Positions 6,001-45,541 of a stretch of 45,541 nt of DNA are shown one piece after another. The notes under the pieces were generated by a model, which did no database searches, was not told where the DNA came from, and saw only the letters and a list, made by a program, of their open reading frames with translations. Within the stretch, counting starts at the first letter, position 1. Every line of letters begins with the position of its first letter. Both the position numbers and the translations under genes were made by a program. The stretch lies in assembly GCA_015711795.1 (NCBI GenBank), contig JACVJC010000019.1:1-45541 (forward strand). Direction: 5' to 3'. This DNA comes from Candidatus Geothermocultor quzhuomuensis. Lineage in GTDB: Bacteria > Actinomycetota > Aquicultoria > Geothermocultorales > Geothermocultoraceae.

Positions 6001-9000
6001 GGGAAGTTAAAACTCAAGGCGGTATTCCCATTCAGGGGGCTACAGTTAACTTAGATAACTACCTTTTACACTTTGAGGCAACCACTGATGCTCAAGGCAA
6101 GTACACCATTAAAGGAGTTCCTTACTCCAACTGGACTTACTATACTGCCTTTGCTGATAAGAAAACTGAAGGCTATATGCCCAGTGAAGCTCAGCAAATT
6201 TGGATTTCTCAAGGAACTACTTATACTGCTAACTTTATCTTAACAAAACCTTCATCTGAGAAAGGCATCTTAGCATCAAGCTGGAACTACCGCTTAGGTA
6301 AGATTGACTATCGAATGGTCATTGGTGCCTCACCAGGCATTGGAAATGTTGATGGAAAAACAGCTAACCTAGAAACAGCTTGTGGGAGCGATGAATACTG
6401 GCCTAAACCAGAAACTGAGGTAGTGGGAACTCCTGTCTCAGGTATCTGGCGTCTCTTTAGAGCCAATGGTAACTTAGTTTGGGCGCGGGCAACCGAAAAC
6501 GATGAAGCTCGCTCATCGGTTGCTTTAGTTGATGTTGATGGAGACAAGAAACTGGAAATTGTTGGTGGAACAACCTCTGGCTCAAGTGTTGAAGTAATTG
6601 ACCAAGCTGATACCACTCAACCGACTTTAGCTAAGTTCTACACGGGTGGCTTTGTCCACTCATCACCAGCCGTGGCTGATTTGGACCCATCAAATCCAGG
6701 TCTTGAAATTGTGGCAACCTCATACAGTGGCAAGGTTTACTGCCTTGGAGTAACTACCACTACAGTTGATTCTAACATTGTAGTCGATGACTTAAAAGAG
6801 GCCTGGTCACAACCATTTAACATGGGCGGCTATAACACAATGGTTTCTTCCCCAGCTATTGAAGATATTGATGGAAATGGCAAGAAAGATGTGGTCTTTG
6901 GTACTTCTGATGGTTATGTCTATGTCTTAAATTCTGATGGGACTCTTAAGTGGAAATACAAAACTGGTGGAGGGGTATATGCTTCTCCTGCCTTGTTCGA
7001 TGTTGATGGTGACGGCAACCGTGATGTTATCATTGGTTCGAGCGACACAAAGCTTTATGCCATTAAGTCAACGGTTGGCGGTCCTTCTGTCTTGTGGACT
7101 TACAAAACAGGCGGAGAAATTTATTCCTCACCTGCGGTTGCTGACATTGACTTAGATGGAATCCATGAAATAGTCGTTGGCTCCAATGATGGTAAGGTTT
7201 ATGCTTTTGAGCTAAACGGAACCAAGAAGTGGGAATATAACACGGGCAAAGCTATTTATTCATCTCCTGCTATTGCTTACAGAAACTATGATGGAAGTGG
7301 CAATGTGACATCAGTTGGGGTATATGTTGGAAGCGAAAATGGTGACCTCTATCTCTTAGATGGAGCTGACGGAAAACTAATTGACCGCTTTATGACTGGA
7401 GCTGTAATTCGAACCTCTCCTGCTGTTGCTGACACTGATGGCGATAAGAAACTGGAAGTCTTATTCCAGGACTGGAGAAGCAGTGGCGACCTGGTTTGGT
7501 GTCTGGAAGACGCATCATCGACTGTTCCTTCCTATGCCAATGAATGGCCTCAATTTCGCTATGGTCCAGCTAGAAGGGGAGTTAAGCCTTTAACTCAAGT
7601 TCAAGCAGTGACACCGCCTCCTTTGTCACCAATTATTAAGGGGACTAACCCTGCTAGTCCGTCAAGCACGGGTACAGTTAATGTCTTTGGAATCTCTGAG
7701 GCAGGAACTTTAGTTGAGCTTTTTGATGGAACAATAACAGCTAGCCTTGGAACAACAACAGCAACTGTGATAAATGAGTTTAACAAAACAGTCAGCTTGT
7801 CCGAAGGAAGCCACACTCTTAAAGCTAAAGCAACTGATACAGGAACGGGACTTTCAAGCGACCTTTCCCTTGGTTACACTGTTGTTGTTGATAAAACTGC
7901 TCCCATTATTACTATCACTGGCGTTACTTCTGGCACAACATATGGTGCTTCTGGAGTTACACCAGTCATATCAATTTGTGATGTTTCTTCTTATGATTCG
8001 ACTACTACTTTAAATGGAGCGACATTTGTCAGCGGAACTAAGATAACGGCTGGAGGAGCTTATACCTTAGTAGTTACGGCTAAAGACGGAGCTGGAAATA
8101 CTTCAAGCAAGGAAGTTACATTTGGCATTGACGATACTCCACCAATAACTACTCTTTCGATTATTCCTGACTCACCTGATGGTACTCCCGCTGGTTGGTA
8201 TGCAACTACTCCAACGGTCAATATGTCTCGAAGCGAACCCGGCTCAACCTATTATCAGTGGGATTCAACCTCGGCTACCGGCTGGAAGACTTACTCTACT
8301 TCCATTACTGGTTCTTCTGGTGTTCACACCCTGTATTATTTTAGCAAGGATATTTATGGTAACAAGGAAAATACCAAGTCGTTTGTGTTTAAAGTTGGCA
8401 TGGATAACTCACCACCAGTTGTTAACTTTACTTATCCGCCGGCTGGACTCACTCCTCTTAACAACAAGATTACTTATACTTCATCAGTAACAGTGACAGC
8501 TAATGCAACTGATACGGGCTTAGGTGTGGCTGCGGGAACTATTAACTTCACTCACTTCTATCCAGAAAAAAATACTACTTGCTGCATCGCCACTATAGGT
8601 TCAGGAATAACTCAGGTTGGCGATGAACTCATTATTCCACTCCATGACTTAAGTACGCAGGAAGGGCTTCACATTCTTAAGATAGACCTTAAAGATATGG
8701 CAGGAAATTCAACCCAAGCCACATCGAAGTTCTATTACAAGGCAACTCCACCAAGCATTACTTTAAGCACGACTCAAACTGTTCCCGGAGATTCCCTTGG
8801 AATTGATGGTAGTAACTTTATTCCTAAAGATGTCATCTCGCTCTATCGAGAAACAGCAGCTGGTGCTTCAACTCTTATTGAGAGTACAACAGCTAGTGCT
8901 AGTGGTTCCTTCTCAACTACTGTAACAGTTCCTTCGGGTCTTTCGGTTGGTACTTACAACATTGTTGCAAGAGGTTCTTATGGAACGAGTGCCCAAGCTT

Positions 9001-12000
9001 CCTTTAATGTTAACCTTAAACTACTCTTCTCACCGCCATCAGGTACTTCCTTTAGCCCATCGGATAATCCTAAGATTGGAGTAAAAGCTGATTCCGCTTC
9101 TGTTGCGACGGTTGATGCTTCTTACACTGCTGGAAATGGTCTTTGGTTATCTCTAGGCAAACTTACAAAAGAGGGTTCAACTCCATGGTACTACACTAAC
9201 TGGTCAACTGGCTACTTGGCTGAAGGAACCTATACTGTCTTAGCAGAGGCAAGAGATAAAAATGGTTCCTTAATAACAACTGAAGATGTTACCTACACCA
9301 TTAAGCCTGACTTATCGTTAGAGCTATCGCCAGCTAATTTAGCTAATGTATTCCCCGATTCAACCTTGATGGCTAAAGGAGGAAAGGATGTCTCCACAGT
9401 CCTTTATCAAGTTCAAAAAGATGGGGTTTGGACCAATATTGGATATGCTACTAAGATTTCAGGAACATCCTGGTGGCAGGTGAAGTGGGACACATTAGCT
9501 ACAGTTAGTAATTCTCCTGGAACTTACTACTTAAGAGCTATACCAAATAACCAAGGAGGTAAAGCAGCTTATATCTATTACAAGCTAGTTTCCGACCTCT
9601 TCCTTTCCTTTACACCTGATAGCACTACTTTGGTCAGAAGTGCTTCCCAGTCTCTCATTGTAACAGGTGGAAGCAGTGTTACAACGGTCACCGTTTCTTA
9701 CAAGAAAGAATCTGACCCATCCTGGACAACTATTGGCACTAAGTCAAGACCAACTGGAACAACTGGAAGCTACAACTTTACCTTTAGTTGGAACACTTTA
9801 GGATTGCTTACAAACACTACTTACACAGTGAGAGCTCAACCTAATTTAAGTATCAATCCCTCTGACCTTGCTTACTCGAATTACTGGTTCAAAGAAGATT
9901 TAAGCTTAATTCTTTATCCTGCTGATGGCTCAACTATCAATCCCAATGAGACCTTATCTTGTTATGCTGGACAAGATGTTACAGCTGTTACCTTTGAGTA
10001 TTATGATAAGGGTATCTGGACGACAATTGGTAACGGTGCACAGAGTGGAAGCTGGTTTACGATTACCTTTGATACTTCTCAACTAGCGAGCGGGAGTTAC
10101 TATCAAGTGAGAGCTTATCCAAATGGAGACACTTCTAAAGCTGTAACTGTTACATACTACTATGAAGATACTTTATCCTTATCGATTTACTATCCCCATG
10201 ATGGCTTCTCGGTTACCGCTAACCCAACTATTTGGATGATGGCTGGAAGTGCCGTTAACTACATTGAGATGTTTATTTCAACTGATACTGTAACCTGGAT
10301 CCCAGCTAAATGGTATGATATAGCAGCTGGCTTGGCTGATGCTAATACAACTAGAGCTGCTCAGTACCCTTTAACTAGCGACTGGTACTACTCTTTATCA
10401 ACTCAAGAAATAGCAACTGGTACTTCCTTTATGGTCAAAGCAATCCCTAACGGAAGCCTATCTCATGCGGCAGTAGTTACTTATAACTTAGTTGACTTAT
10501 CTTTAGAGCTCTATCCAGAATCGTCATCAGAAGCAACTACGACCCTTAAAGCTAATCCAGTTATTAAAGCCAAGGGTGGAGCCGGTGTCTATCAAGTTGA
10601 GTTTTACTATCAACAGTTGCTTGATGACGGAAGTTACTCTAGCCTCACTCTCATTCCTGCTTACGTTGGTTATACGAATATTGTAACGAGAACAGCCGGG
10701 TCTGACTGGTTTGAGACAAGAATCGACACCTCTAATTTAGAAGATGGTACCTACAAGATAGTTGCTATTGGTTGGGATGCTTCTTTAACAGTTTTTAATA
10801 CTGTTGAAGCTCCTTACTTACTTGACACTCACCCACCGAAGAAACCAAATATTATTGAAGTTACTTACTCACCACAAAAGGGTGTCGAAATTCACTGGGC
10901 TGACCCACAAAACCAAGCAGAAGATAGAGCCGGCTATAACATTTATCGGGCTGAAAGTACTCCAACTGGATTCCAGAACATTGCTTATGTTGTTTGGGAT
11001 GGACATGACTCAAGCTACTTCTACAATGACTGGAACATCCAAAAGACAACTACTTATTACTATTATGTAACAGCAGTAGATACAGCTGGAAACGAAAGTG
11101 ATGGAAGTGAGATTAAATCTATTACTGTTCATACTCTTCCTGATACTCAATATGGCAAAGGTAAGAAGAAAGGTGGGCCTGACCAAGATACTACTGCAAG
11201 TGCTCAAGGCGATTCCTATATTACTGTTTCCATTCCCAAAGAAGCTCTCCATCAAGATGTCATCATTACTCTGGAAGCTTTGACGACTAAAACAGCTGAT
11301 ACTCCTTTGAAGTTTGAGCTCTTGCAAACTGTTGGAAGTGCTCTTCTTGAGGGAGTTGATGCTTCCAAGCTAGTTGGTTCAGCTTACTCACTTTTAGTTA
11401 TGGATGCCCAAACAGGCCTTGTTGTTTCAGAGTTTGATTCACCAATCACTATCACTATTCACTATACAGAAGAGGAATGGCAAGCAGTTAAAAATACTCT
11501 TTCAGGAACTGTTTCACTCTACTTTACTTACTATCATCCAGCTAAAGGAAAATGGGTTAGTGTTCAAGCGACTCAAGGAACTGATGAGCAAGGTAACAAG
11601 ACTTTAACTGTTCAAATTAGTCATGCCACCTTGTTTGGCTTAACAGCTGGTGCTATTGTGGCTGGTGGCTTTGGAGGAGGTGGAGGTGCAGCTGCTCCAA
11701 GTGCTGGAGCTGCTATTAGCCGGTTGTCTGGGACAAACCGCTATGAGACAGCTGTTTTAATCTCCCGGAAAGGCTGGTCAAGTGCCTCAACAGTTATCAT
11801 TGCTACTGGAAAGAACTTCCCCGATGCCTTAGCTGGAGCACCACTTGCTAAAGCTTACAATGCCCCCATTTTATTAACTGAGCCTGGTTTCTTACCATCA
11901 GTTACTAAAAATGAGATAAACCGCTTGAAGGCAACTAAAGCTATTATCTTAGGTGGAACGGGGGCAGTATCAGATTCTGTTAAGTCGGCTATCATCTCAA

Positions 12001-12635
12001 AAACAACGGTAAATGTGGTTGAAAGAGTTTATGGTTCTAACCGTTATGAAACAGCAGCTGCTATTGCGAGGAAACTCAAGAGCAAACTGGGCTCCGGCTT
12101 ATCAAAATATGCTATTATTGCGACAGGTGAAAACTATCCTGATGCCTTAGCTGTTTCTGGTCTAGCTGGGTATAAGAAGATGGCTATCTTACTGGTTACT
12201 AAAAATTCAATTCCAAGTGCTACCTCAAAAGCTATATCTGACTTAGGCATCACAAGAACCATTATTGTTGGAGGAACTGGTGTTGTTTCAAGTGGTGTTA
12301 AGGCGCAGTTGCCTAATGCGACGAGACTGGCTGGCACCAACAGATACGAGACGGCTAGGGAAATTGCTGAATACGCTATTGACCAGGGAATGAGTTGGAG
12401 TAAAACTCTTATTGCCACTGGTGCTAATTACCCAGATGCTTTAGCTGGTGGTGCCTTAGCAGCTAAGCTAGCTGGGCCAATGCTTTTAGTTCATCCAACT
12501 GACTTAGATAAGTCACCAGCGACTAAGAGCATTTTGGTAGCAAAGAGAGCAAGTATTAATTACATTTACCTCTTAGGTGGAACAGGAGCTGTTTCAACTG
12601 TTGTTCAAGAAGAGATAGATGAGGCAGTGAGCTAA
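60..12635 (+). CDS. Giant multidomain cell-surface protein with three C-terminal CWB2 repeats (5' incomplete)
   Basis: At least 4191 residues, probably exported and wall-bound, acting as adhesin, S-layer-like or scaffold protein; no enzyme domain was recognised. Order (approximate residues): remnant of a TolB/WD40-like propeller blade (1-45); a beta domain seen in S-layer-type proteins (50-180); seven ~163-residue repeats (185-1320); four Ig-like plus carboxypeptidase-regulatory-like units (1322-2065); an FG-GAP/VCBS-type propeller with calcium-type loops such as DVDGDGN (2070-2510); Ig-like domains (2515-2980); six ~100-residue beta repeats (2985-3585); FN3 (3590-3690); a ZU5-like domain (3700-3860); a Gly/Ala linker; three CWB2 repeats (3886-4191) with NRYETA and FPDALA/YPDALA motifs. 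There is no signal peptide, and ATG 60 has no ribosome site and falls mid-blade. An in-frame TAA at 12-14 precedes it, so the true start lies outside the window or the edge carries a frameshift or assembly error. Confidence 0.85.
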   Translation: MYDLSTQTETAICTQTSDQVYPSIYQDKIVWYDRRNGDWDIYMAVLPVPPPSPPTVVLGNYNAGEVSSYTINATLTAGIYGTQGDYITITFPGETSLPVSFNVADVTINGTNPSSVDKFNWDVQLNLAPNQSFSTGTPITIVFDAVAGITNPLTPGFYQLWFSTSKEPTLQSAPYEITGGPPPSAWIDIDIWNDHIDVCNAPPNMPVTVEVKDSTGTVKGSTVKVADPSGWAEVHCYELNNIDIISGDIVRATFWDGSFVEMTVANIDASCNMATNVVSGIGSANSPINLWARGVNGEYQTSVTSTAGGAFSYDFTPQLDIVYNYEYGASYTDVDGNQTHVTKWTPGLVVDVNNDYVDGKGATPNTTVTVEVRNASNVLKASKSVKAYRNGDFKVDRSTLGEINIIPGDKVKATFYDSSYVQITVANITASCDMATNIVSGSAPANSMVHINVDGVSGHFEGDTTAGAIGFYSFDFTPQVDIRYNYWFDAVYNHSDGNVTHFGDNTPGAETNIFYDDIWGFKAPPNSWITVELKDSFDSLKGTDVVQADQYGSWSSPNWMGRYLTDIVPGDKIIATTTGYEVTMTVANLDANCDVETNIVSGVGPPNTSLEVQAWGMSGAGAGAQVIADTFGNFSYDFSSQRDILYNDWFEVIYNGNDGNKTHYQRQVPGLRTDIFWDNISGQSPVVNSYVNIYLYDQSDTTKAVASVWSNQHGEFRASSWDLSSVDVAPYDKVIAVFADFSGVMMTVPYLTAELDKATNVLSGDAPANSLIYAYVSDPAGFYDGNISVSSSGTYSRNLTGIFDVTIDSNAYLRYQNLEGNIAETNAFSLGFEVSLNPDYVRGQGLYPYQNVSIEVKNASNLLKGSGTVWTDRQGFFSAEPYDLGLMNTDMASGDKVYMTYMDWKTEMTTTVAIATNLTGKINIDTDTVSGSTLPNSKVKIEVYTPGTEITTAVAANSSGNYSYSAPVNIRRDDEVNVSYLNAEGNRVRLEIPNGAVNANLTFNIVKSTNFALPGTTVYAEVRDQFNKFKGGAVISINRWNMLLIEPWQWNTTEPIDLESGDTIYLTSDERNDTIPTNLTAETSWTANTVSGSSVPNSNVELLIKEQDQPSWMGESTTLATGLDGSFFYQSYQDIGAGWEVHAAHYNPDNNVVTVANVYPSTHILITQDEIYGVGYPVGRKVQVDIYDESGSYKGLVLTNTDSGGSYNVHKSDFSPPIDIVSGDNVYVFIEGETPIYIPINLTGSVDLALDYVFGNSTPNTTVTVEVNGYYGSDKQTIITNLEGSYFASFFFDIIPGDWIKVKYVNPEGNFVHLTIPTGLEPPIITFPPEGSTIDTSSTVVEGLARPNAQIQIIHGYYDEYGYYLSDFTTATADSLGNITATIPVYNGWNELHVTQKVASGEVSGPAWTYFWGDISAKVRVSGTVNQGGLPVQDAYVYFWDIYTYQSYETTSNALGFYSLDVPQGKSYSGYAYKGDDWSETTTTGILTSDTTINFAFIPQLPVISYPPSGELITSSPINATGTAFPGAQVKIRHAWWNSYGYYQEEITTTTADESGNWSKSINVYDGENDLYVSQQVSGQWSYEEFSYFFGDIPENKVALQGKITKGVTPQPDAYVYFWDNYTYAFYSAISDSNGDYLVQVPSGSSYSGYAYKGYDYSNTTSTAIISTTTTVNFAFKPDMPLISVPLYGQTFTTSSVAVSGTAVNNADIYIELYGYPYSGSYISKSVTTTANGSGNWSYTFSGLKDGSYNLYVSQKDVSGLMSDYAYSYFYVNLAISGTVSLSGKVTTFEETPVSAATVYIWGYPSGSGYFSTYKDTDAGGNYSFDVPQDTNYYLYAYKYDPSAYTYKWTDTTYVAVESTNVSGVNLKFKPNPPVIISPALGETTTPPSGDEITLEGTALANANIYLYSYAYDDFGFWKSNCYTPIADGSGAFTVSNFKVYNDKNDIYIYQEKDGMWSDYGYHYFYGLNVPVSPNYATVTGEVKTQGGIPIQGATVNLDNYLLHFEATTDAQGKYTIKGVPYSNWTYYTAFADKKTEGYMPSEAQQIWISQGTTYTANFILTKPSSEKGILASSWNYRLGKIDYRMVIGASPGIGNVDGKTANLETACGSDEYWPKPETEVVGTPVSGIWRLFRANGNLVWARATENDEARSSVALVDVDGDKKLEIVGGTTSGSSVEVIDQADTTQPTLAKFYTGGFVHSSPAVADLDPSNPGLEIVATSYSGKVYCLGVTTTTVDSNIVVDDLKEAWSQPFNMGGYNTMVSSPAIEDIDGNGKKDVVFGTSDGYVYVLNSDGTLKWKYKTGGGVYASPALFDVDGDGNRDVIIGSSDTKLYAIKSTVGGPSVLWTYKTGGEIYSSPAVADIDLDGIHEIVVGSNDGKVYAFELNGTKKWEYNTGKAIYSSPAIAYRNYDGSGNVTSVGVYVGSENGDLYLLDGADGKLIDRFMTGAVIRTSPAVADTDGDKKLEVLFQDWRSSGDLVWCLEDASSTVPSYANEWPQFRYGPARRGVKPLTQVQAVTPPPLSPIIKGTNPASPSSTGTVNVFGISEAGTLVELFDGTITASLGTTTATVINEFNKTVSLSEGSHTLKAKATDTGTGLSSDLSLGYTVVVDKTAPIITITGVTSGTTYGASGVTPVISICDVSSYDSTTTLNGATFVSGTKITAGGAYTLVVTAKDGAGNTSSKEVTFGIDDTPPITTLSIIPDSPDGTPAGWYATTPTVNMSRSEPGSTYYQWDSTSATGWKTYSTSITGSSGVHTLYYFSKDIYGNKENTKSFVFKVGMDNSPPVVNFTYPPAGLTPLNNKITYTSSVTVTANATDTGLGVAAGTINFTHFYPEKNTTCCIATIGSGITQVGDELIIPLHDLSTQEGLHILKIDLKDMAGNSTQATSKFYYKATPPSITLSTTQTVPGDSLGIDGSNFIPKDVISLYRETAAGASTLIESTTASASGSFSTTVTVPSGLSVGTYNIVARGSYGTSAQASFNVNLKLLFSPPSGTSFSPSDNPKIGVKADSASVATVDASYTAGNGLWLSLGKLTKEGSTPWYYTNWSTGYLAEGTYTVLAEARDKNGSLITTEDVTYTIKPDLSLELSPANLANVFPDSTLMAKGGKDVSTVLYQVQKDGVWTNIGYATKISGTSWWQVKWDTLATVSNSPGTYYLRAIPNNQGGKAAYIYYKLVSDLFLSFTPDSTTLVRSASQSLIVTGGSSVTTVTVSYKKESDPSWTTIGTKSRPTGTTGSYNFTFSWNTLGLLTNTTYTVRAQPNLSINPSDLAYSNYWFKEDLSLILYPADGSTINPNETLSCYAGQDVTAVTFEYYDKGIWTTIGNGAQSGSWFTITFDTSQLASGSYYQVRAYPNGDTSKAVTVTYYYEDTLSLSIYYPHDGFSVTANPTIWMMAGSAVNYIEMFISTDTVTWIPAKWYDIAAGLADANTTRAAQYPLTSDWYYSLSTQEIATGTSFMVKAIPNGSLSHAAVVTYNLVDLSLELYPESSSEATTTLKANPVIKAKGGAGVYQVEFYYQQLLDDGSYSSLTLIPAYVGYTNIVTRTAGSDWFETRIDTSNLEDGTYKIVAIGWDASLTVFNTVEAPYLLDTHPPKKPNIIEVTYSPQKGVEIHWADPQNQAEDRAGYNIYRAESTPTGFQNIAYVVWDGHDSSYFYNDWNIQKTTTYYYYVTAVDTAGNESDGSEIKSITVHTLPDTQYGKGKKKGGPDQDTTASAQGDSYITVSIPKEALHQDVIITLEALTTKTADTPLKFELLQTVGSALLEGVDASKLVGSAYSLLVMDAQTGLVVSEFDSPITITIHYTEEEWQAVKNTLSGTVSLYFTYYHPAKGKWVSVQATQGTDEQGNKTLTVQISHATLFGLTAGAIVAGGFGGGGGAAAPSAGAAISRLSGTNRYETAVLISRKGWSSASTVIIATGKNFPDALAGAPLAKAYNAPILLTEPGFLPSVTKNEINRLKATKAIILGGTGAVSDSVKSAIISKTTVNVVERVYGSNRYETAAAIARKLKSKLGSGLSKYAIIATGENYPDALAVSGLAGYKKMAILLVTKNSIPSATSKAISDLGITRTIIVGGTGVVSSGVKAQLPNATRLAGTNRYETAREIAEYAIDQGMSWSKTLIATGANYPDALAGGALAAKLAGPMLLVHPTDLDKSPATKSILVAKRASINYIYLLGGTGAVSTVVQEEIDEAVS
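614..4015 (+). repeat. Seven tandem ~163-residue protein repeats in the giant surface protein
   Basis: Unit starts are near 614, 1106, 1590, 2073, 2556, 3050 and 3541, a spacing of 483-495 bases. Each unit has two beta-rich halves. The first contains a PN-xx-VTVEV core followed by KGS-like and SGDKV-like segments. The second begins with TN-x-VSG and PNS/ANS and ends with a (D/E)GN turn. The units are diverged in DNA sequence, so this is an old domain duplication rather than a recent satellite. I cannot assign the fold to a named family by eye; an Ig-like or carboxypeptidase-regulatory-like fold is likely. Confidence 0.8.
4024..6250 (+). repeat. Four Ig-like plus carboxypeptidase-regulatory-like protein repeats
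   Basis: Units start near 4024, 4560, 5097 and 5679, a period of about 180-195 residues. Each begins with a YPPSG/FPPEG-type strand and an Ig-like half. A half with the consensus AYVYFWD, a DxxGxY turn, VPQG and GYAYK follows; this resembles carboxypeptidase regulatory-like domains (PF13620 type). The units are unusually rich in tyrosine. The fourth unit has a degenerate second half. Confidence 0.75.
9015..10810 (+). repeat. Six ~100-residue beta-sandwich repeats in the giant surface protein
   Basis: Units start near 9015, 9306, 9591, 9894, 10164 and 10492. The consensus is DLSLELxPxxG, then a central A/T-GG or AG turn with a V-T-x-V-x-Y strand, then a W-T/S-x-IG strand and a closing TYxVRAxPN strand. 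They look like Ig-like spacer domains that hold other parts away from the wall. No characterised family was recognised. Confidence 0.7.
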
Positions 12636-37990: not shown

Positions 37991-38021
37991 ACATAGCTAA
38001 CCCTTCCAAAAGGTGGTGAAA

Positions 38022-38387
38022 GTGGAATTTTATCTTTTGGATGTCCTTTTGGTCCTTATTTTTTCTGGTATTGGCATAATCTTAATCGCTCTCATTTTTG
38101 GGCTTTCTAAATTAATTTCTACTGCTAAACCAAGTGAGGTTAAAGAAAGCACTTATGAGTGTGGTAATGTTCCAATTGGAGAATCGTGGATTCAGTTTCG
38201 TGTTCGCTATTATATTTTTGCTCTTCTTTTTGTCATTCTTGATATTGAGATGATTTTCCTTTTTCCTTGGGCAATAGTTTTTCAAAGAATGGGTCTTTTT
38301 GCCCTTATTGAGATGGCAATTTTTGTTGGCCTTTTAGTTGTTGGTTTAGTCTATGCTTGGCGAAAGGGGGCGTTAAAATGGGTTTAA
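38022..38387 (+). CDS. nuoA: NADH-quinone oxidoreductase (complex I) subunit A
   Basis: 121 residues with three membrane helices and the conserved [12 protein letters not shown] loop (Cys in the quinone-chamber loop), [18 protein letters not shown] and FLFPWA. It belongs to the membrane arm near the quinone site. Start GTG 38022 is chosen because AAAGGTGG (38008-38015) lies six bases upstream; GTGs at 38013 and 38016 overlap that site. First gene of the operon; overlaps nuoB by ten bases. Confidence 0.95.
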
Positions 38388-38917
38388 TTAGAAAAGTGAG
38401 CCCTGAGAAGATAATTCCTAAAAAAGTTATTGAAAAAAAGGCTGTGTCTCTCGAAGAAAGGAAATTAGTTGAGGCAAGAGTAAAAATAGTTCCTTTAACT
38501 AAACTTTTAAGCTGGGGTCGCCGCTCTTCCATTTGGCCTTTAGCTTTTGGTTTAGCTTGCTGTGCTATTGAGATGATGGCTACAGCTGCTTCCCATTATG
38601 ACCTTGACCGATTTGGAATTATGTTTCGAGCCTCTCCTCGTCAAGCTGATGCCATGATTGTAGCTGGTACGGTAACTATTAAGATGGCACCCCTTGTTAA
38701 GCGGCTTTACGAGCAACTGGCGGAACCAAAGTTTGTTATTGCTATGGGAAGTTGCGCTATTTCAGGTGGGGCTTTTTTCTATGATTCTTACTCAGTGGTT
38801 AAAGGTGTTGACAAGATTATTCCTGTCGATGTCTATGTGCCAGGATGTCCCCCCAGACCTGAGACATTAATTCAAGGGTTAATGGAATTACAACGAAAGA
38901 TTAAGGAGGGATTTTAA
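38378..38917 (+). CDS. nuoB: Complex I subunit B, N2 iron-sulfur protein
   Basis: 179 residues. It holds cluster N2, the last iron-sulfur centre before quinone; the ligands are the tandem Cys61-Cys62 (LACCAIEMM), Cys126 (GSCAISGG) and Cys157 (GCPPRPE). The first ~50 residues form a longer basic N-terminal arm than in E. coli. ATG 38378 follows AAAGGGGGCG; the open frame before it lies within nuoA. The N2 motif is intact, so this module can reduce quinone. Confidence 0.97.
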
Positions 38918-38923
38918 AGATAA

Positions 38924-39385
38924 ATGAAGAATCCTCAGTTTATCAAGGAGATTAAAAAGAAGTTTGGTAAAGTAATTTTAGATTTCAAATCTTACAATGA
39001 TGAAATTATTTTAACAATTGATAAAACTTCTCTCTTGCCTCTTGCTAAAGAATTGAAAAAAATTGGCTTTGAATATTTTTCTTTTGTTACTGCCGTTGAT
39101 TACCAAGAAAGGATTATTTTGGTTTATCGCCTTTCTTCATTTAAGGACAAAGTTAATTTAATTTTGAAAGCAATTTTGCCCTTAAGTGACTTAAAGATAG
39201 ATTCAGTTTCTTCCATCTGGGGTGGGGCAAATTGGCATGAGCGAGAAGTCTTTGACCTCTTTGGCGTGGTCTTTGATCACCATCCTGACCTTAGGAGAAT
39301 ATTACTTCCAGAGAATTGGTCTGGTCATCCGTTAAGGAAGGATTATAGAGATGAGGATGTAGTTAAGAGAAAAGAATACTTTTAA
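38924..39385 (+). CDS. nuoC: Complex I subunit C (30 kDa)
   Basis: 153 residues with the C-terminal signature of the family: [19 protein letters not shown], the [10 protein letters not shown] segment and the GHPLRKDY end. It binds NuoD in the connecting Q module. It is a stand-alone NuoC (no C-D fusion as in E. coli). The ATG is six bases after the nuoB stop and has AAGGAGG within nuoB's last codons. Confidence 0.95.
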
Positions 39386-39403
39386 TTTTAGGGAGCTTAA
39401 TAA

Positions 39404-40504
39404 GTGATTAGAACAGAAGAACTGCAGTTAAATATGGGTCCTCAACATCCAAGTACTCATGGAGTTTTACGGATTGTTCTTAGGTTGGATGGTGAGGTAA
39501 TAGTGGAAGCTATCCCCCATATTGGTTATTTACATCGGGGAATAGAAAAAATAGCTGAAAATAGAACATATACCCAAGTTATTCCTTTGACTGATCGTTT
39601 AGATTATGTCTCCTCGATGATGAACAACTTTGCTTATGTCTTAGCGGTTGAGGAACTTATGGGCATTGAGGTTCCTGAGCGAGCTAGTTTTATCCGAATC
39701 ATTATGGCTGAGCTACAGCGAATTGCCAGTCATTTAATTGCTTTTGGGACAGGTGGATTGGATGCTGGAGCAATGACCGTTTTTCTTTATTGTTTTCGGG
39801 AAAGAGAAAGAATTTTAGAGCTTTTTGAGATGGTTTGTGGGGCAAGGCTTACCTATAACTATTTCCGTTTTGGAGGAGTTAGCCAAGATTTTCCAAAAGA
39901 GTTTGCCGAGTCAGCTAGGAATTTTATTAAGTACATGAGACCAAAATTGGATGAGTATGAGGATTTACTTTTAAACAACTACATCTTTCAAAAAAGGACT
40001 AAGGGAGTTGGTGTTCTCAAGAAAAAAGATGCCTTGAGTTATGGGGCGAGTGGGCCGGTTTTAAGAGGCTCTGGTATAAAACGAGATATCCGAAAGGAAA
40101 AACCTTATTCCCTTTATGATCGGTTTGATTTCGAGATCCCAGTGGGGAAGAATGGAGATACCTGGGATAGAACCTGGGTTCGGCTTGAGGAGATGAGACA
40201 GAGTTTAAATATTGTTGAACAAGCTTTAGATGGTCTTCCTTCAGGTAAAGTAAAAGCGTGGGGAGTCCCGAGAATGATTAAGCCGCCACCAGGTGAAGTT
40301 TATCGACCAATTGAATCAACCCGTGGTGAACTTGGTTTTTATATTGTAAGTGATGGCTCTGCTCGTCCTTATCGAATGAAAGTACGCAGTCCTGCTTTTT
40401 CTAATTTAAGTCTCATTCCGGTTGTTATAAAAGGTCACCAAATAGCTGATGTGGTTGTTATTTTGGGTAGCTTAGATCCTGTCTTTGGCGAGGTTGATAG
40501 ATGA
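39404..40504 (+). CDS. nuoD: Complex I subunit D (49 kDa)
   Basis: 366 residues starting at GTG 39404 behind AGGGAG. It has the quinone-site loop NMGPQHPSTHGVLR, IGYLHRGIEKIAE, the DRLDYVS segment and the conserved C-terminus ending LDPVFGEVDR. The Cys ligands of NiFe hydrogenase are absent, so it is complex I and not a hydrogenase. nuoH follows with an ATGA overlap. In standard nuo operons nuoE, nuoF and nuoG would stand here, but there is no room for them. Confidence 0.97.
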   Translation: MIRTEELQLNMGPQHPSTHGVLRIVLRLDGEVIVEAIPHIGYLHRGIEKIAENRTYTQVIPLTDRLDYVSSMMNNFAYVLAVEELMGIEVPERASFIRIIMAELQRIASHLIAFGTGGLDAGAMTVFLYCFRERERILELFEMVCGARLTYNYFRFGGVSQDFPKEFAESARNFIKYMRPKLDEYEDLLLNNYIFQKRTKGVGVLKKKDALSYGASGPVLRGSGIKRDIRKEKPYSLYDRFDFEIPVGKNGDTWDRTWVRLEEMRQSLNIVEQALDGLPSGKVKAWGVPRMIKPPPGEVYRPIESTRGELGFYIVSDGSARPYRMKVRSPAFSNLSLIPVVIKGHQIADVVVILGSLDPVFGEVDR

Positions 40505-41499
40505 ACTTTAGTTTTTTGTATTTAATGGGAGTAGCTGGAGTTGGGATTTTTATCTTTATTGCTCTTTCGGTTTTAATTTTAGTTTGGTTAGAAAGGAAAG
40601 TCGCTGGTCATATTCAAAGTCGAATGGGCCCAATGCGAGTTGGCTGGCATGGTTTAGTTCAAACCTTAGCTGACATGGTGAAATTAATTTCAAAAGAAAG
40701 TATTTTACCTGCAAAGGCTGATAAATGGCTTTTTTTCCTTGCTCCTTTTGTTGTCTTTATCCCGGCTTACCTTTCTTACATGGTTATTCCTTTTGCGCCC
40801 AAATTGATCATTAGGGATTTTAATATTGGCCTTCTTTACTTTCTAGCTATTCCTTCAATTAGTGTCGTTGGAATAATTATGGCAGGATGGGGTTCTAATA
40901 ATAAATACGCTCTTTTAGGAGGATTGCGTTCAGCTGCTCAAATTATTAGTTATGAAATTCCTCGAGCTCTCTCAGTCGTTGGGGTTGTAATGTTAGCTGG
41001 TTCAATGAGTACGGTGACCATTGTTAAATCGCAAAGTTCTATTTGGTTTATTCTTTTACAACCTTTGGGTTTTCTCATTTACTTTATATCTACTTTAGCT
41101 GAAGTTAATCGAATTCCTTTTGATTTACCAGAAGCTGAGTCAGAATTAGTCGCTGGTTTTCATACTGAATATAGCGGAATTAAATGGTCAATTTTTATGA
41201 TGTCTGAATATGCAAATGTTTTTGCAGGTTGTGCTCTCTGCGTTGTTTTGTTTTTAGGGGGGTGGCATGGTTTTTTAATTCCTAAGGGAGAACCTTGGTC
41301 AAGTGTGGTTTCTTTAATTTGGTTTATGGTTAAGACATTAATTTTAATCTTTTTGATGATGTGGCTGAGGTGGACATTGCCTCGCTTTCGAGTTGACCAA
41401 TTAATGGATTTAAGTTGGAAAGTATTTTTACCTCTAGCTTTAATTAACATTGGTTTAACTGGACTTTTTATCCTTGGGGCTTTAAAACTTTTTTCTTAG
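40501..41499 (+). CDS. nuoH: Complex I subunit H (quinone-chamber membrane protein)
   Basis: 332 residues with eight membrane helices. It shows ERKVAGHIQSRMGPMRVG near the start, the GLRSAAQIISYEIP segment and PFDLPEAESELVAGF, all typical of NuoH/ND1. It forms the quinone entrance with NuoB and NuoD and begins the proton-translocating axis. Overlaps nuoD by four bases. Confidence 0.97.
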   Translation: MNFSFLYLMGVAGVGIFIFIALSVLILVWLERKVAGHIQSRMGPMRVGWHGLVQTLADMVKLISKESILPAKADKWLFFLAPFVVFIPAYLSYMVIPFAPKLIIRDFNIGLLYFLAIPSISVVGIIMAGWGSNNKYALLGGLRSAAQIISYEIPRALSVVGVVMLAGSMSTVTIVKSQSSIWFILLQPLGFLIYFISTLAEVNRIPFDLPEAESELVAGFHTEYSGIKWSIFMMSEYANVFAGCALCVVLFLGGWHGFLIPKGEPWSSVVSLIWFMVKTLILIFLMMWLRWTLPRFRVDQLMDLSWKVFLPLALINIGLTGLFILGALKLFS

Positions 41500-41508
41500 G
41501 AGAGCTAA

Positions 41509-43491
41509 ATGCTTAAAAAGTTTTGGAAATTTTTTGAAGCTTTTCAAAGTATTTTTATCGGGATGGGGATAACTTTTAAGTATTTAACAAGTAAAGCTGT
41601 AACTTTTCAATATCCTGACCAAAAGAGACCCATTTCTCTCCGCTGGCGAGGCCTTTTGGCTCTTAAAGGTTTTATGGGAGAAACTCCACATCAGTTGTTA
41701 AGAGAAAGTGGGGCTGAGCCTCAAACTTATAAAGCTTATGTTCACAAAAGACTAAAGGAAGATACCCTACCCCACTGCACCGGCGCTTGTCCAGCAAATG
41801 TTGATGTTTCAGGTCAAAATGCATTAGTAGCTGAGGGTAAGTATCTAGAGGCTTTTGAAATTGTTCAAGAGAGAAATATTTTACCTGGTGTTTTAGGTCG
41901 AATTTGCCATCATCCTTGCGAAGGAAGATGTCGGCGTGGTTATTATGACGAGCCTGTATCAATAAAATTTCTTCACAGGTTTATTGCTGAAGAGGCTAGA
42001 AAAACTAGAAGGAAAAATAACCCTAAATTAAAAAGGGAGCTAAAGAAGAGGGAGGAAAAAGTAGCAATTATTGGTTCTGGACCTTCTGGATTAGCGGCTG
42101 CCTTTGATTTAGCTAAGGAAGGCTATCAAGTTACCATTTTTGAGAAGCAAAAATTTCCTGGAGGAATGTTAGCAATTGGAGTCCCCTTATATCGTTTACC
42201 TCGGGATGTTCTTCTTTTTGATATCGAGAGAGTCAAAGGTTTAGGGGTGGAGATAAGAACAGGTGTTGAGGTTGGTAAGGATTTAACGATCAAAGATTTA
42301 AAGAAGCAAGGTTTCAAGGCAATCTTAATTGCCGTTGGTTTGCAAGTTAGCAGAAGTCTCCCTATACCTGGCATTGACCTTGATGGAGTTCTCTTAGCTG
42401 TTCCTTTTTTGAAAGCTGTTAATTCTGGAGAGAAAGTAAAAATAGGTAAGGATGTGATTGTTATTGGAGGGGGAAATGTCGCTGTTGATGTGGCTCGGTG
42501 CGCTCGGCGAGTTGGAGCTGAGAAAGTCAAGATGGTTTGTCTTGAGGCAAGACATGAAATGCCAGCCTTTCCATGGGAAATAGAAGAATCTTTGGAGGAA
42601 GGAATTGAAATTCATTGTTCCTGGGGTCCGAAGCAAATTTTAGGAAAGGATGGTAGGGTAGTGGGCTTAGAGGTTAAAGAGTGTACAGCTGTTTTTGATG
42701 CCCAAGGGAGATTTGCTCCAACTTTTTGCGAGGAGCATACCAAAGTTGTTGAGGGTGATACTGTTATTTTAGCAATTGGACAAGCTTCTGACCTTTCTTT
42801 AGTTGAAGGAACAGAAATAAAGCTGAATGAGAGGAGACAGCTCATTTTTGATAAGGTTACATTAGAAACAACTGAAACTGGTGTTTTTGCTTGCGGAGAG
42901 GTGACAACAGGTCCGAGTACAGCAATTGGTTCTATTGCCACTGGGCATGAGGCAGCTATTTCAATTAGCCGCTTCTTAAGGGGTGAGGATTTAAGAAAGG
43001 GTCGTTTACCAGCAATAAATTTAGAAGAATTTGAGGAGTATCCTCAGGTAGATTTAGAAGATATTGAGGAAGAGCGACTGAGACCAAGACCAGTAAAGCT
43101 TTCAGTTGAAGAAAGAATCGATAACTTTAAGGAAATAGAATTAGGTTTTAAAGAAAAGGTTGCTGTTAAGGAAGCACTTCGCTGCTTAAGGTGCTACAGC
43201 GAAAAGTGTGTTGGCTGTACCTTTTGTGCCCGCACATGCCCTGATTTTTGTATTGAAGTGGAAAGAACAAGGGATGGCAAGAGAGTTGCTAAGTACCAAA
43301 TCGAGATGGGTAAATGCATGTTCTGTGGTTTGTGCTCCGAGCAATGTCCAACTAGATCTTTAGTTATGACACCTCAACATGAATTAGCTTTTTATCAAAA
43401 AGAACTTTTGGAATACGATAAAGAAAAATTGTTAAGAAGTGAAAAAGGATACGCATTTAAAGAAAAAGAGAAGGAGAGAAAATATGCCTAG
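41509..43491 (+). CDS. nuoI: NuoI split by an inserted GltD-type FAD/NAD(P)H oxidoreductase
   Basis: 660 residues against ~150-200 for NuoI. Residues 1-55 match the NuoI N-terminus (membrane-contacting helix, then TFQYPDQKRPISLRWRG). Residues about 60-562 form a full glutamate-synthase-beta-type module. They hold Fe-S ligand Cys (C90, C94, C133, C137, C141) and an FAD Rossmann motif from V185 (IIGSGPSG). A second nucleotide motif starts at V316 (IVIGGGNVAVD) and an FAD-closing GVFACGE at 458. C559-x2-C562 ends this module. Residues about 565-660 are the NuoI ferredoxin domain with two [4Fe-4S] sets, C567-C570-C573-C577 and C603-C606-C609-C613, and the normal NuoI tail (HELAFYQKELLEYDKEKLL). 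The frame is continuous and in register with nuoH before and nuoJ after. It probably accepts NAD(P)H electrons and passes them to N6a/N6b and NuoB. The donor preference is not visible. Confidence 0.93.
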   Translation: MLKKFWKFFEAFQSIFIGMGITFKYLTSKAVTFQYPDQKRPISLRWRGLLALKGFMGETPHQLLRESGAEPQTYKAYVHKRLKEDTLPHCTGACPANVDVSGQNALVAEGKYLEAFEIVQERNILPGVLGRICHHPCEGRCRRGYYDEPVSIKFLHRFIAEEARKTRRKNNPKLKRELKKREEKVAIIGSGPSGLAAAFDLAKEGYQVTIFEKQKFPGGMLAIGVPLYRLPRDVLLFDIERVKGLGVEIRTGVEVGKDLTIKDLKKQGFKAILIAVGLQVSRSLPIPGIDLDGVLLAVPFLKAVNSGEKVKIGKDVIVIGGGNVAVDVARCARRVGAEKVKMVCLEARHEMPAFPWEIEESLEEGIEIHCSWGPKQILGKDGRVVGLEVKECTAVFDAQGRFAPTFCEEHTKVVEGDTVILAIGQASDLSLVEGTEIKLNERRQLIFDKVTLETTETGVFACGEVTTGPSTAIGSIATGHEAAISISRFLRGEDLRKGRLPAINLEEFEEYPQVDLEDIEEERLRPRPVKLSVEERIDNFKEIELGFKEKVAVKEALRCLRCYSEKCVGCTFCARTCPDFCIEVERTRDGKRVAKYQIEMGKCMFCGLCSEQCPTRSLVMTPQHELAFYQKELLEYDKEKLLRSEKGYAFKEKEKERKYA

Positions 43492-43975
43492 TTCAATTGA
43501 GATAGTAATTTTTTCTTTTTTAGCAATCTCAGGTATTGTCTCAAGTTTTTTGGCGGTGACCGGAAGAAATCTTTTCCGTTCTTTCCTTTTTTTTGGCTAT
43601 TTCCTTTTGAGTGTAGCAGGTTTTTACTTTCTTTTAAAGGCAGATTTTATTGCTATGGTTCAAATTATTGTTTATGTTGGGGGTATTCTTGTTCTTATCT
43701 TATTTTTTCTGATGCTCACTCCAAAACTAGCAAGTGAGGAACTGAAAGAGGTAAGATTAAAGGTTTCTTCTATTTTTTTGAGCCTTTTCTTTTTTGGCTT
43801 ACTTGTTTCGGTTCTTTCTAAAATGGCTCCAACTGTAATAGAAAAAGACAGATTTCCGGATGTGTTAACCTTGAGCAAGATACTTTTAACTAAATTTTCT
43901 TTACCTTTTGAGGTTGCTGGGGTTATTTTACTCGTTGCCCTAGTCGGAGTTGTTGTTCTCATTGGGGGGGAATAA
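43484..43975 (+). CDS. nuoJ: Complex I subunit J
   Basis: 163 residues with five membrane helices. It has the family's RNLFRSFLFFGYFLLSVAGFYF stretch in parts and the helix VQIIVYVGGILVLILF, the conserved TM3 with its pi-bulge region. ATG 43484 follows AAGGAGAG and overlaps the nuoI stop by eight bases; an upstream in-frame GTG is inside nuoI and not used. It belongs to the membrane arm. Confidence 0.94.
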   Translation: MPSSIEIVIFSFLAISGIVSSFLAVTGRNLFRSFLFFGYFLLSVAGFYFLLKADFIAMVQIIVYVGGILVLILFFLMLTPKLASEELKEVRLKVSSIFLSLFFFGLLVSVLSKMAPTVIEKDRFPDVLTLSKILLTKFSLPFEVAGVILLVALVGVVVLIGGE

Positions 43976-43976
43976 C

Positions 43977-44297
43977 GTGATACCATTATCTTGGTATTTA
44001 TTTTTAGGAGCTATCTTTTTTTCTTTTGGTCTTTATGGCATTTTGACTAGGCGAAACATCATTAGCATATTAGTCTCAATTGAGATTATGTTTAATGCTG
44101 CTAATTTAAATTTTGTTGCTTTTTCCCGCTACTTCCCTTTAAAATCAATTGGCGACCAAACAACAGGTCCAATCTTTGCTCTTTTTGTTGTTACTGTAGC
44201 GGTTGCTGAAATAGCTATTGGTTTGGCTTTAATCTTAATTGCTTATAGTAAGTTAGGAACTATTAATATTGGTGAAATAAAACTAATGAAAGGCTAA
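43977..44297 (+). CDS. nuoK: Complex I subunit K
   Basis: 106 residues with three membrane helices. The two conserved membrane glutamates are in SIEIMFNAANLNFV and VAVAEIAIGLALI, used in proton transfer. GTG 43977 is two bases after the nuoJ stop; a G-run ending at 43970 serves as ribosome site. Earlier in-frame ATG lies within nuoJ. Very similar in length to other NuoK. Confidence 0.96.
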   Translation: MIPLSWYLFLGAIFFSFGLYGILTRRNIISILVSIEIMFNAANLNFVAFSRYFPLKSIGDQTTGPIFALFVVTVAVAEIAIGLALILIAYSKLGTINIGEIKLMKG

Positions 44298-44307
44298 GGG
44301 GGTTAAG

Positions 44308-45541
44308 TTGACTTCATTTGGTTGGTTAGTGCTAATTTTCCCTTTTATTTCATTTATTATCTTAGTTTTTCTAGGCAAAAAACTTCCTCGAGGTGGGGCA
44401 TTTCTCTCTATCTTAGCTGTTTTTTTCTCTTTCCTTTTATCTCTCTTAATCTTAATTGATGTGGCTGGGGGGGCAAGATTTTATAATTCTATTACTTGGC
44501 TTTCAATTGAAGGCCTTCATCTTAAAATGGGAGTTACCATTGACCCTCTTGCTTCCCTGATGTTAGTTGTTGTTTCTTTTATTTCCCTTCTCGTTCAGAT
44601 TTATTCCCTTTCCTATATGGCAGGGGAAGTGAGATTTTCCTGGTATTATGCTTGTCTTTCACTTTTTTCCGCTGCTATGCTTGGGCTTGTTTTGTCCAAT
44701 AATTACCTTCAAATGTATATGTTTTGGGAATTAGTTGGTTTATGCTCTTATCTTTTAATTGGTTTTTGGTATGAAAAAAAAGAAGCTTCAGCAGCAGCAA
44801 AGAAAGCTTTTATCACAACGAGAATTGGAGACGTTGGTTTTCTTCTCGGTATTTTACTTTTATTTTATGTCACAGGAACCTTCGACATGAAAACAATCTT
44901 TGATGCTAAACTCCTTTCACCTGTAGCTACCATTGCCTCTTTGCTCCTTTTCTCAGGAGCAGTTGGCAAAAGTGCTCAATTTCCCTTACATGTTTGGTTA
45001 CCTGATGCCATGGAAGGCCCCACTCCAGTATCGGCTTTAATCCATGCGGCTACCATGGTTGCTGCTGGTGTCTACCTGGTTGCCCGAAGTTACCCACTCT
45101 TTTCAGCTTCACCCCTTGCCTTACAAATAGTTGCTATTATTGGGACAATAACTGCTTTAATGGCAGCTACTATTGCCATTACGATGAGAGACATTAAAAA
45201 AATCTTAGCTTACTCAACCATTTCCCAACTTGGCTACATGATGCTTGGACTGGGAGTAGGAGGGATGGTTGCTTCCATCTTTCATTTAATGACCCATGCT
45301 TTCTTTAAAGCTTTACTTTTCTTAGGAGCAGGAAGCGTCATCCATGCCACCCATACCAACGATATCTTTGAGATGGGAGGATTAGCCAAAAAGATGAAGA
45401 TAACTACTTTCACTTTTATCTTAGGTGCCTTATCTTTATCTGGCATTCCTCCTTTAGCTGGATTCTTCTCTAAAGATGAGATAATAACTGCTGCCTTTCA
45501 TTCCCATAACTACCTCATCTTTTTGATTGCTTTATTTGTTG
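44308..45541 (+). CDS. nuoL: Complex I subunit L, 5' part (runs off the right edge)
   Basis: At least 411 residues read from TTG 44308 (AAGGGGG upstream) to the window end with no stop. It has the antiporter-like features of NuoL/ND5: FWELVGLCSYLLIGFWYE, the segment VGKSAQFPLHVWLPDAMEGP, TPVSALIHAATMVAAGVYL and KILAYSTISQLGYM. The full gene should be about 600-650 residues. It pumps protons in the distal membrane arm. nuoM and nuoN are expected beyond the edge. Confidence 0.96.
   Translation, partial: MTSFGWLVLIFPFISFIILVFLGKKLPRGGAFLSILAVFFSFLLSLLILIDVAGGARFYNSITWLSIEGLHLKMGVTIDPLASLMLVVVSFISLLVQIYSLSYMAGEVRFSWYYACLSLFSAAMLGLVLSNNYLQMYMFWELVGLCSYLLIGFWYEKKEASAAAKKAFITTRIGDVGFLLGILLLFYVTGTFDMKTIFDAKLLSPVATIASLLLFSGAVGKSAQFPLHVWLPDAMEGPTPVSALIHAATMVAAGVYLVARSYPLFSASPLALQIVAIIGTITALMAATIAITMRDIKKILAYSTISQLGYMMLGLGVGGMVASIFHLMTHAFFKALLFLGAGSVIHATHTNDIFEMGGLAKKMKITTFTFILGALSLSGIPPLAGFFSKDEIITAAFHSHNYLIFLIALFV

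Follow-up and report, generated by a model that had tools for sequence, protein, structure and literature searches.

Complex I operon and gene features

The analyzed stretch of DNA (45,541 nucleotides, henceforth called the window) represents contig C19 in a genome of 1.76 Mb and 38 contigs. Judged by the NuoI sequences typical of its relatives, the window probably belongs to Actinomycetota; no 16S gene was found in the assembly. Positions 38013-45541 hold a complex I operon in the order nuoA, B, C, D, H, I, J, K, L, with nuoL cut by the contig end. The nuoI position is occupied by a single open reading frame of 660 amino acids without internal stop (41509-43491, plus strand), whose product is henceforth called NuoI*. 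The features of the operon are as follows:

38013-38387, plus strand: nuoA, with a homologue at the same position in the operon order of relatives
38357-38917, plus strand: nuoB, C68, C69, C133, and C164 for cluster N2 intact
38924-39385, plus strand: nuoC, from operon comparison with relatives
39404-40504, plus strand: nuoD of the complex I type, ending in DPVFGEVDR and without [NiFe] CxxC pairs
40501-41499, plus strand: nuoH, from operon comparison with relatives
41509-41685, plus strand: NuoI N-terminal segment (residues 1-59), matched by NuoI models
41686-41760, plus strand: linker (residues 60-84), variable among relatives (alignment A1)
41761-42036, plus strand: N-terminal Fe-S domain of the insert (Fer4_20; C90, C94, C133, C137, C141)
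42052-42423, plus strand: FAD Rossmann domain of the insert, part 1 (Pyr_redox_2; GSGPSG; R229)
42433-42786, plus strand: pyridine-nucleotide domain of the insert (GGGNVAVD ... VCLEARHEMPA; NADH-type motif without YRR)
42790-42993, plus strand: FAD domain of the insert, part 2 (Pyr_redox_2)
43084-43194, plus strand: permuted end segment of the insert, LSVEERIDNFKEIELGF...RCLRC (C559, C562; aligned to 4ylf_B and 5jca_L)
43195-43488, plus strand: NuoI 2x[4Fe-4S] domain and NuoI C-terminus (C567, C570, C573, C577, C603, C606, C609, C613; TIGR01971 positions 41-121)
43439-43975, plus strand: nuoJ, true start probably near 43484
43950-44297, plus strand: nuoK, from operon comparison with relatives
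44308-45541, plus strand: nuoL, cut by the contig end and continuing in contig C37 (127-base overlap), followed there by nuoM and nuoN

With the N2 cysteines present in NuoB and the [NiFe] ligands absent from NuoD, both subunits are of the quinone type.

Interruption of NuoI by an insert

Profile searches of NuoI* returned the Pfam domains Fer4_20 (residues 88-166, 1.4e-21), Pyr_redox_2 (184-479, 1.2e-30), and Fer4_7 (566-615), and the NCBIfam models PRK12771 (79-622) and TIGR01971, i.e., NuoI (557-641). Residues 1-85 searched alone matched NuoI models (NF004538, 4e-9) and, apart from one weak NdhI match, nothing else, with residues 18-57 of this piece aligned to positions 1-40 of TIGR01971. 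The C-terminal 99 residues alone matched positions 41-121 of the same model (1.8e-24). Joined without the insert, the NuoI pieces scored 121.1 bits over positions 1-121, compared to 101.3 bits for intact NuoI*, 112.4 bits for the canonical NuoI of a relative (L118), and a curated cut-off of 113.05 bits. Since the spliced score lies above the cut-off and the two pieces occupy adjacent model positions, a complete NuoI is present and is split by an insertion between positions 40 and 41, in the loop ahead of the first CxxC motif. The separate searches thus bear out the sequence-only reading, which had proposed a true insertion between the N-terminal part and the ferredoxin domain of NuoI instead of an end-to-end fusion; the junctions, put there near 41690 and 43195, were located at about 41686 and 43195. 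A free-standing GltD-ferredoxin protein that merely resembles NuoI was rejected because the N-terminal piece matches NuoI models and the C-terminal piece resumes at the next model position. No second NuoI was found in the genome of the window, and NuoI* is encoded within the nuo operon.

Architecture of the insert

The insert comprises an entire GltD-type Fe-S/FAD/NAD(P)H oxidoreductase, with a Fer4_20 Fe-S domain and two Rossmann domains. Its best matches among solved structures were NfnA (9n5u), 9bov, StnC (8oh5), and NfnL-type proteins, and its nearest relatives are proteins of the GltD-MvhD type. The segment SxExRxxNFxExxLGxxxExAxxEAxRCLxC is N-terminal in stand-alone GltD/NfnL and follows the flavin domain in the insert, in StnC, and in PRK12771-type proteins; residues 6-48 of 4ylf_B aligned to residues 527-568 of NuoI*, and residues 10-74 of 5jca_L aligned within about 526-589. 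Because this end segment is permuted, the insert can sit inside another protein. Seven cysteines of the insert (C90, C94, C133, C137, C141, C559, and C562) match the set that binds the cluster pair of GltD, and as both ends of the insert supply ligands of one such pair, they should, judging from the family, be close in space. C562 lies five residues ahead of C567, the first NuoI ligand, and the CA distance between the two is hence at most 19 Å.

In an alignment of 11 proteins (A1), the seven insert cysteines and the eight NuoI cysteines for two [4Fe-4S] clusters (C567-C613) were invariant and the FAD motif was kept, in agreement with the initial description of the cofactor motifs as intact. 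One homologue outside this alignment (G409, L139) has Ser at the position of C559. H156 is a candidate fourth ligand of the FAD-proximal cluster: it aligns with K170 of StnC, which has this role (PMC10482914), and the position is His or Lys in NuoI* homologues. An AlphaFold2 model built from eight sequences had a mean pLDDT of 62, with values below 50 across most of the NuoI part, and was set aside because of this low confidence.

The GltD fold is common to NfnB, and R229, which matches R201 of NfnB, is conserved, so that the inserted flavin might, as in NfnB, bifurcate or confurcate electrons (NAD(P)H with ferredoxin). This appears very improbable, as the operon of the window has no gene for an NfnA-type [2Fe-2S]/FAD partner, and StnC has the same Arg yet does not bifurcate (PMC10482914).

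Occurrence of the fusion in related genomes

Full-length homologues of NuoI* were found in nuo operons of at least 12 other genomes. Those with 37-52% identity belong to family f3 (G117, G049, G095, G138, G061, and G020), G132, G044, and G002; further ones in the same class belong to other families (G421, G409, and G417, with G419 partial). Scoring the best four candidates per genome, no full-length match was obtained in the 297 genomes scanned from the phylum of G151 (Syntrophales) or in the 300 from that of G154 (Cohnella). Most close relatives with the operon keep the fusion. The refuting condition named earlier, relatives with separate genes and no fusion, gave a mixed outcome, as the corresponding operon of two f3 genomes (G035 and G084) contains a canonical NuoI.

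The draft state of the assembly, in which the contig of the window ends inside nuoL, would leave room for an assembly or gene-calling artefact. The probability of such an artefact is negligible, because the same fusion occurs in many independent genomes, one of which (G132, 1.84 Mb) consists of a single contig. Chance and an assembly chimera are rejected on the same grounds: the frame is intact and is matched by the same fusion in nuo operons of relatives. No description of a GltD-in-NuoI fusion was found in the literature searched, which excluded most subscription journals.

Variants of the arrangement were seen at several loci. In G317, from the phylum of the Chloroflexota locus, NuoH and a GltD-bearing NuoI form one frame of 1013 residues (L086:8399-11434). 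G132 carries a second nuo operon with a canonical NuoI beside the fused one (L047, L129). At L126 (2612-4123) and L127 (2557-4068), NuoI bears an insert with Fe-S and FAD domains and without an NAD(P) domain. In G068 and G029 (L124:2592-4397, L128:2586-4391), the NuoI N-terminus and the first cluster motif only are fused to a NuoF-like protein, and a GltD-type protein of about 830 amino acids follows this fusion in the operon.

Nucleotide preference

In NADPH-using GltD, Nfn, and Stn structures, the second Rossmann motif is followed by YRR, whose Arg pair holds the 2'-phosphate. The window has CLE at this place (VCLEARHEMPA), as do G132, G421, and G409, with LE at the same place in G044 and G417, whereas the homologues of f3, G002, and G317 have YRR. 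In a tree of the nucleotide domain, CLE and YRR forms fall into distinct clades (100/99). Because CLE replaces the NADPH-type YRR, NADH is the likelier donor of NuoI* in the window over NADPH. The earlier suggestion that this protein is perhaps NADPH-specific is hence not upheld; by the same motif, the inserts of f3, G002, and G317 do look NADPH-type.

Evolution of the insert

A tree of the whole insert needed four changes, and AU tests ruled against a single origin of all inserts both for the full insert (p = 4e-54) and for the FAD part (p = 0.0028). The two parts of the insert gave conflicting trees. In the FAD-part tree, the f3 inserts grouped with the clade of the window (100/97), and their grouping with the family's own YRR paralogues was rejected (p = 0.0043). 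In the nucleotide-part tree, they fell among the YRR paralogues of their family (93/93), and joining them to the clade of the window was rejected (p = 7e-8). This conflict means that the nucleotide domain was replaced in f3; recombination with a paralogue from its own lineage is the simplest route. Separate origins of the window and f3 inserts, as read from the whole-insert tree, were accordingly overturned by the split trees, f3 being a chimera. In the FAD part, G002 and family f20 formed a separate clade (100/100) and G317 was placed elsewhere, with different junctions. Together with the rejection of a single FAD-part clade, these placements point to two or more, probably three, events of acquisition or wholesale replacement. 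A host tree of NuoA, B, C, D, H, K, and L united the window, f3, G132, and G044 in one group (100/99) with G035 inside, which indicates that the canonical NuoI of G035 and G084 would reflect loss of the insert or replacement of NuoI.

The inserts of f20 (G018 and G033) kept the Fe-S domain, the FAD motifs, and all cysteines, and lost the nucleotide domain, so that the forms across relatives comprise NADH-type, NADPH-type, and nucleotide-free inserts. On balance, we lean towards a scenario in which the NuoI loop before the first cluster motif is a reused slot: GltD-type modules would have been inserted there at least two and probably three times independently and would then have behaved as interchangeable cartridges whose nucleotide domains switched between NADH- and NADPH-type or were deleted, and whole inserts would have been lost, thereby retuning the electron donor of complex I.

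It follows from the f20 inserts that NAD(P)H oxidation is not the only possible role of the insert. It might mainly take electrons from a partner (ferredoxin, an Hdr/MvhD-type or another flavoprotein), with the nucleotide site secondary or lost, as would fit the f20 inserts themselves, the occurrence of close insert relatives as fusions with MvhD/HdrA-type domains, encoded beside MetF-type genes, and the ferredoxin proposed for the published 11-subunit complex I (PMC9686372). We consider this unlikely, though worth bearing in mind, given that the complete second Rossmann motif is kept in the window and in the 11 proteins of A1 and that the nucleotide domain of f3 was exchanged for another intact one.

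Missing NADH module and genome context

The genes nuoE, nuoF, and nuoG were absent from all operons read around NuoI* genes, in the window as well as in relatives. NuoF-type domains elsewhere in the genome of the window were restricted to two genes. The one on contig C15 is RnfC-like and lies in a cluster whose gene sizes and arrangement resemble those of Rnf. The one on contig C17 (L059) is a NuoF-GltD fusion that adjoins nuoE and the alpha subunit of a formate dehydrogenase (FdhA) with a NuoG-like N-terminus. FdhA is split at a TGA, likely a selenocysteine codon, and HdrA2-like, MetF-like, and HdrB/C-like genes are close by; the cluster likely encodes an NAD-dependent formate dehydrogenase near Wood-Ljungdahl genes. 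The only nuoE/F of the genome thus belong to formate dehydrogenase. With the predicted entry site and the first clusters on NuoI*, the insert would stand in for NuoE, NuoF, and NuoG. Of the proposed replacement of the NADH module, the lack of nuoEFG from the operon was found and is conserved in relatives, and from this we strongly infer that the insert replaces the three-protein NADH-oxidizing part.

With its Rnf-like, NAD-type formate dehydrogenase, and HdrA2/MetF genes, the organism may be limited in its NAD(P)H supply. The complex could then run in reverse, with the ion-motive force pushing electrons from a quinol-like donor via NuoI to FAD and so generating NADH or NADPH, and the exchange for a YRR domain would be consistent with production of NADPH; we regard this as rather doubtful. 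A search for MqnA and MqnD found neither in the genome of the window. Quinones were not detected in two Anaerosomatales grown in culture that have an 11-subunit complex I, and for one of them, Parvivirga hydrogeniphila, the authors noted the absence of NuoEFG and suggested ferredoxin as the donor (PMC9686372). G132, which resembles P. hydrogeniphila in G+C and in having two nuo loci, may belong to the Anaerosomatales. If it is the cultured Parvivirga, the fusion went unnoticed in a cultured organism without a reported quinone.

Proposed electron path and comparison with known systems

The gene most probably encodes the NuoI of an 11-subunit complex I with an inserted, permuted GltD-type flavoprotein, which would unite the entry site with the first two Q-module clusters on one polypeptide and let electrons from NAD(P)H reach an acceptor while driving ion pumping. 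NAD(P)H, here probably NADH, would reduce the FAD of the insert, from which electrons would leave singly via the two [4Fe-4S] clusters of the insert. These clusters would hand the electrons straight on to those of NuoI, which correspond to N6a/N6b, and the electrons would next reach N2 in NuoB and then the acceptor in the NuoD/NuoH cavity, and this flow would drive ion pumping. The path from NAD(P)H via FAD, insert clusters, and NuoI clusters to N2 is likely by analogy with StnC, whose GltD domain, beside NuoG-type clusters, transfers electrons one at a time in a linear chain (NADPH to FAD, C7, C6, C5, and onward) without bifurcation (PMC10482914). We infer that NuoI* assembles into a working complex I with electron flow in this direction.

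The GltD domain inside the NuoG-like StnC of the Stn transhydrogenase (PDB 8oh5, 8oh9; PMC10482914) is the closest precedent. In both proteins, a GltD-type FAD domain and two [4Fe-4S] clusters lie within an Fe-S subunit of the complex I type and feed, or in NuoI* would feed, a linear chain, and about the same GltD stretch aligns, permuted end included. StnC differs in having a NuoG-like host, in belonging to a soluble bifurcating enzyme, and in using NADPH (YRR), whereas NuoI* has a NuoI host, a membrane complex I operon, and CLE. Compared to canonical 14-subunit complex I (NDH-1), NuoA, B, C, D, H, I, J, K, and L (and M and N) are homologous and NuoI and the N2 cysteines are intact, but NuoE/F/G are missing and the predicted electron entry lies inside NuoI. 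The 11-subunit complex I and Fpo/Fqo types likewise lack an N-module in the operon; Fpo has a separate F420H2 subunit and ferredoxin is supposed for other 11-subunit forms, whereas in NuoI* the flavoprotein is built in. PRK12771-type GltD-ferredoxin fusions align with the insert and the following ferredoxin over residues 79-622, but are free-standing, with a ferredoxin end that is not NuoI and without a NuoI N-terminus. In the profile of the putative oxidoreductase PRK13984 (NF010590), positions 14-113 form a NuoI-like ferredoxin stretch and positions from about 196 to 609 a GltD stretch; the two stand end to end, in contrast to the insertion in NuoI*.

How NDH-1 without NuoEFG receives its electrons is a question that concerns many anaerobes, and an entry site fused into NuoI is a candidate answer for one little-known group of them. 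Such an enzyme would be a complex I of far smaller size driven by NAD(P)H, would offer a natural switch from NADH to NADPH through domain exchange, and could serve as a model for how the modular enzyme gained or replaced its N-module.

Other features of the window

The last 127 bases of the window (45415-45541), at the contig end within nuoL, are common to contig C37 (L084), which carries a nuoL end, nuoM, nuoN, a gap of nuoJ size, nuoK, and a second nuoL start that is 95% like that of the window. Another nuoL end with nuoM and nuoN lies on contig C6 (L083). The membrane-arm genes of this genome seem to be present in a second, tandem set. At the other end of the window, positions 60-12635 form one open frame of 4191 amino acids that encodes a giant protein.
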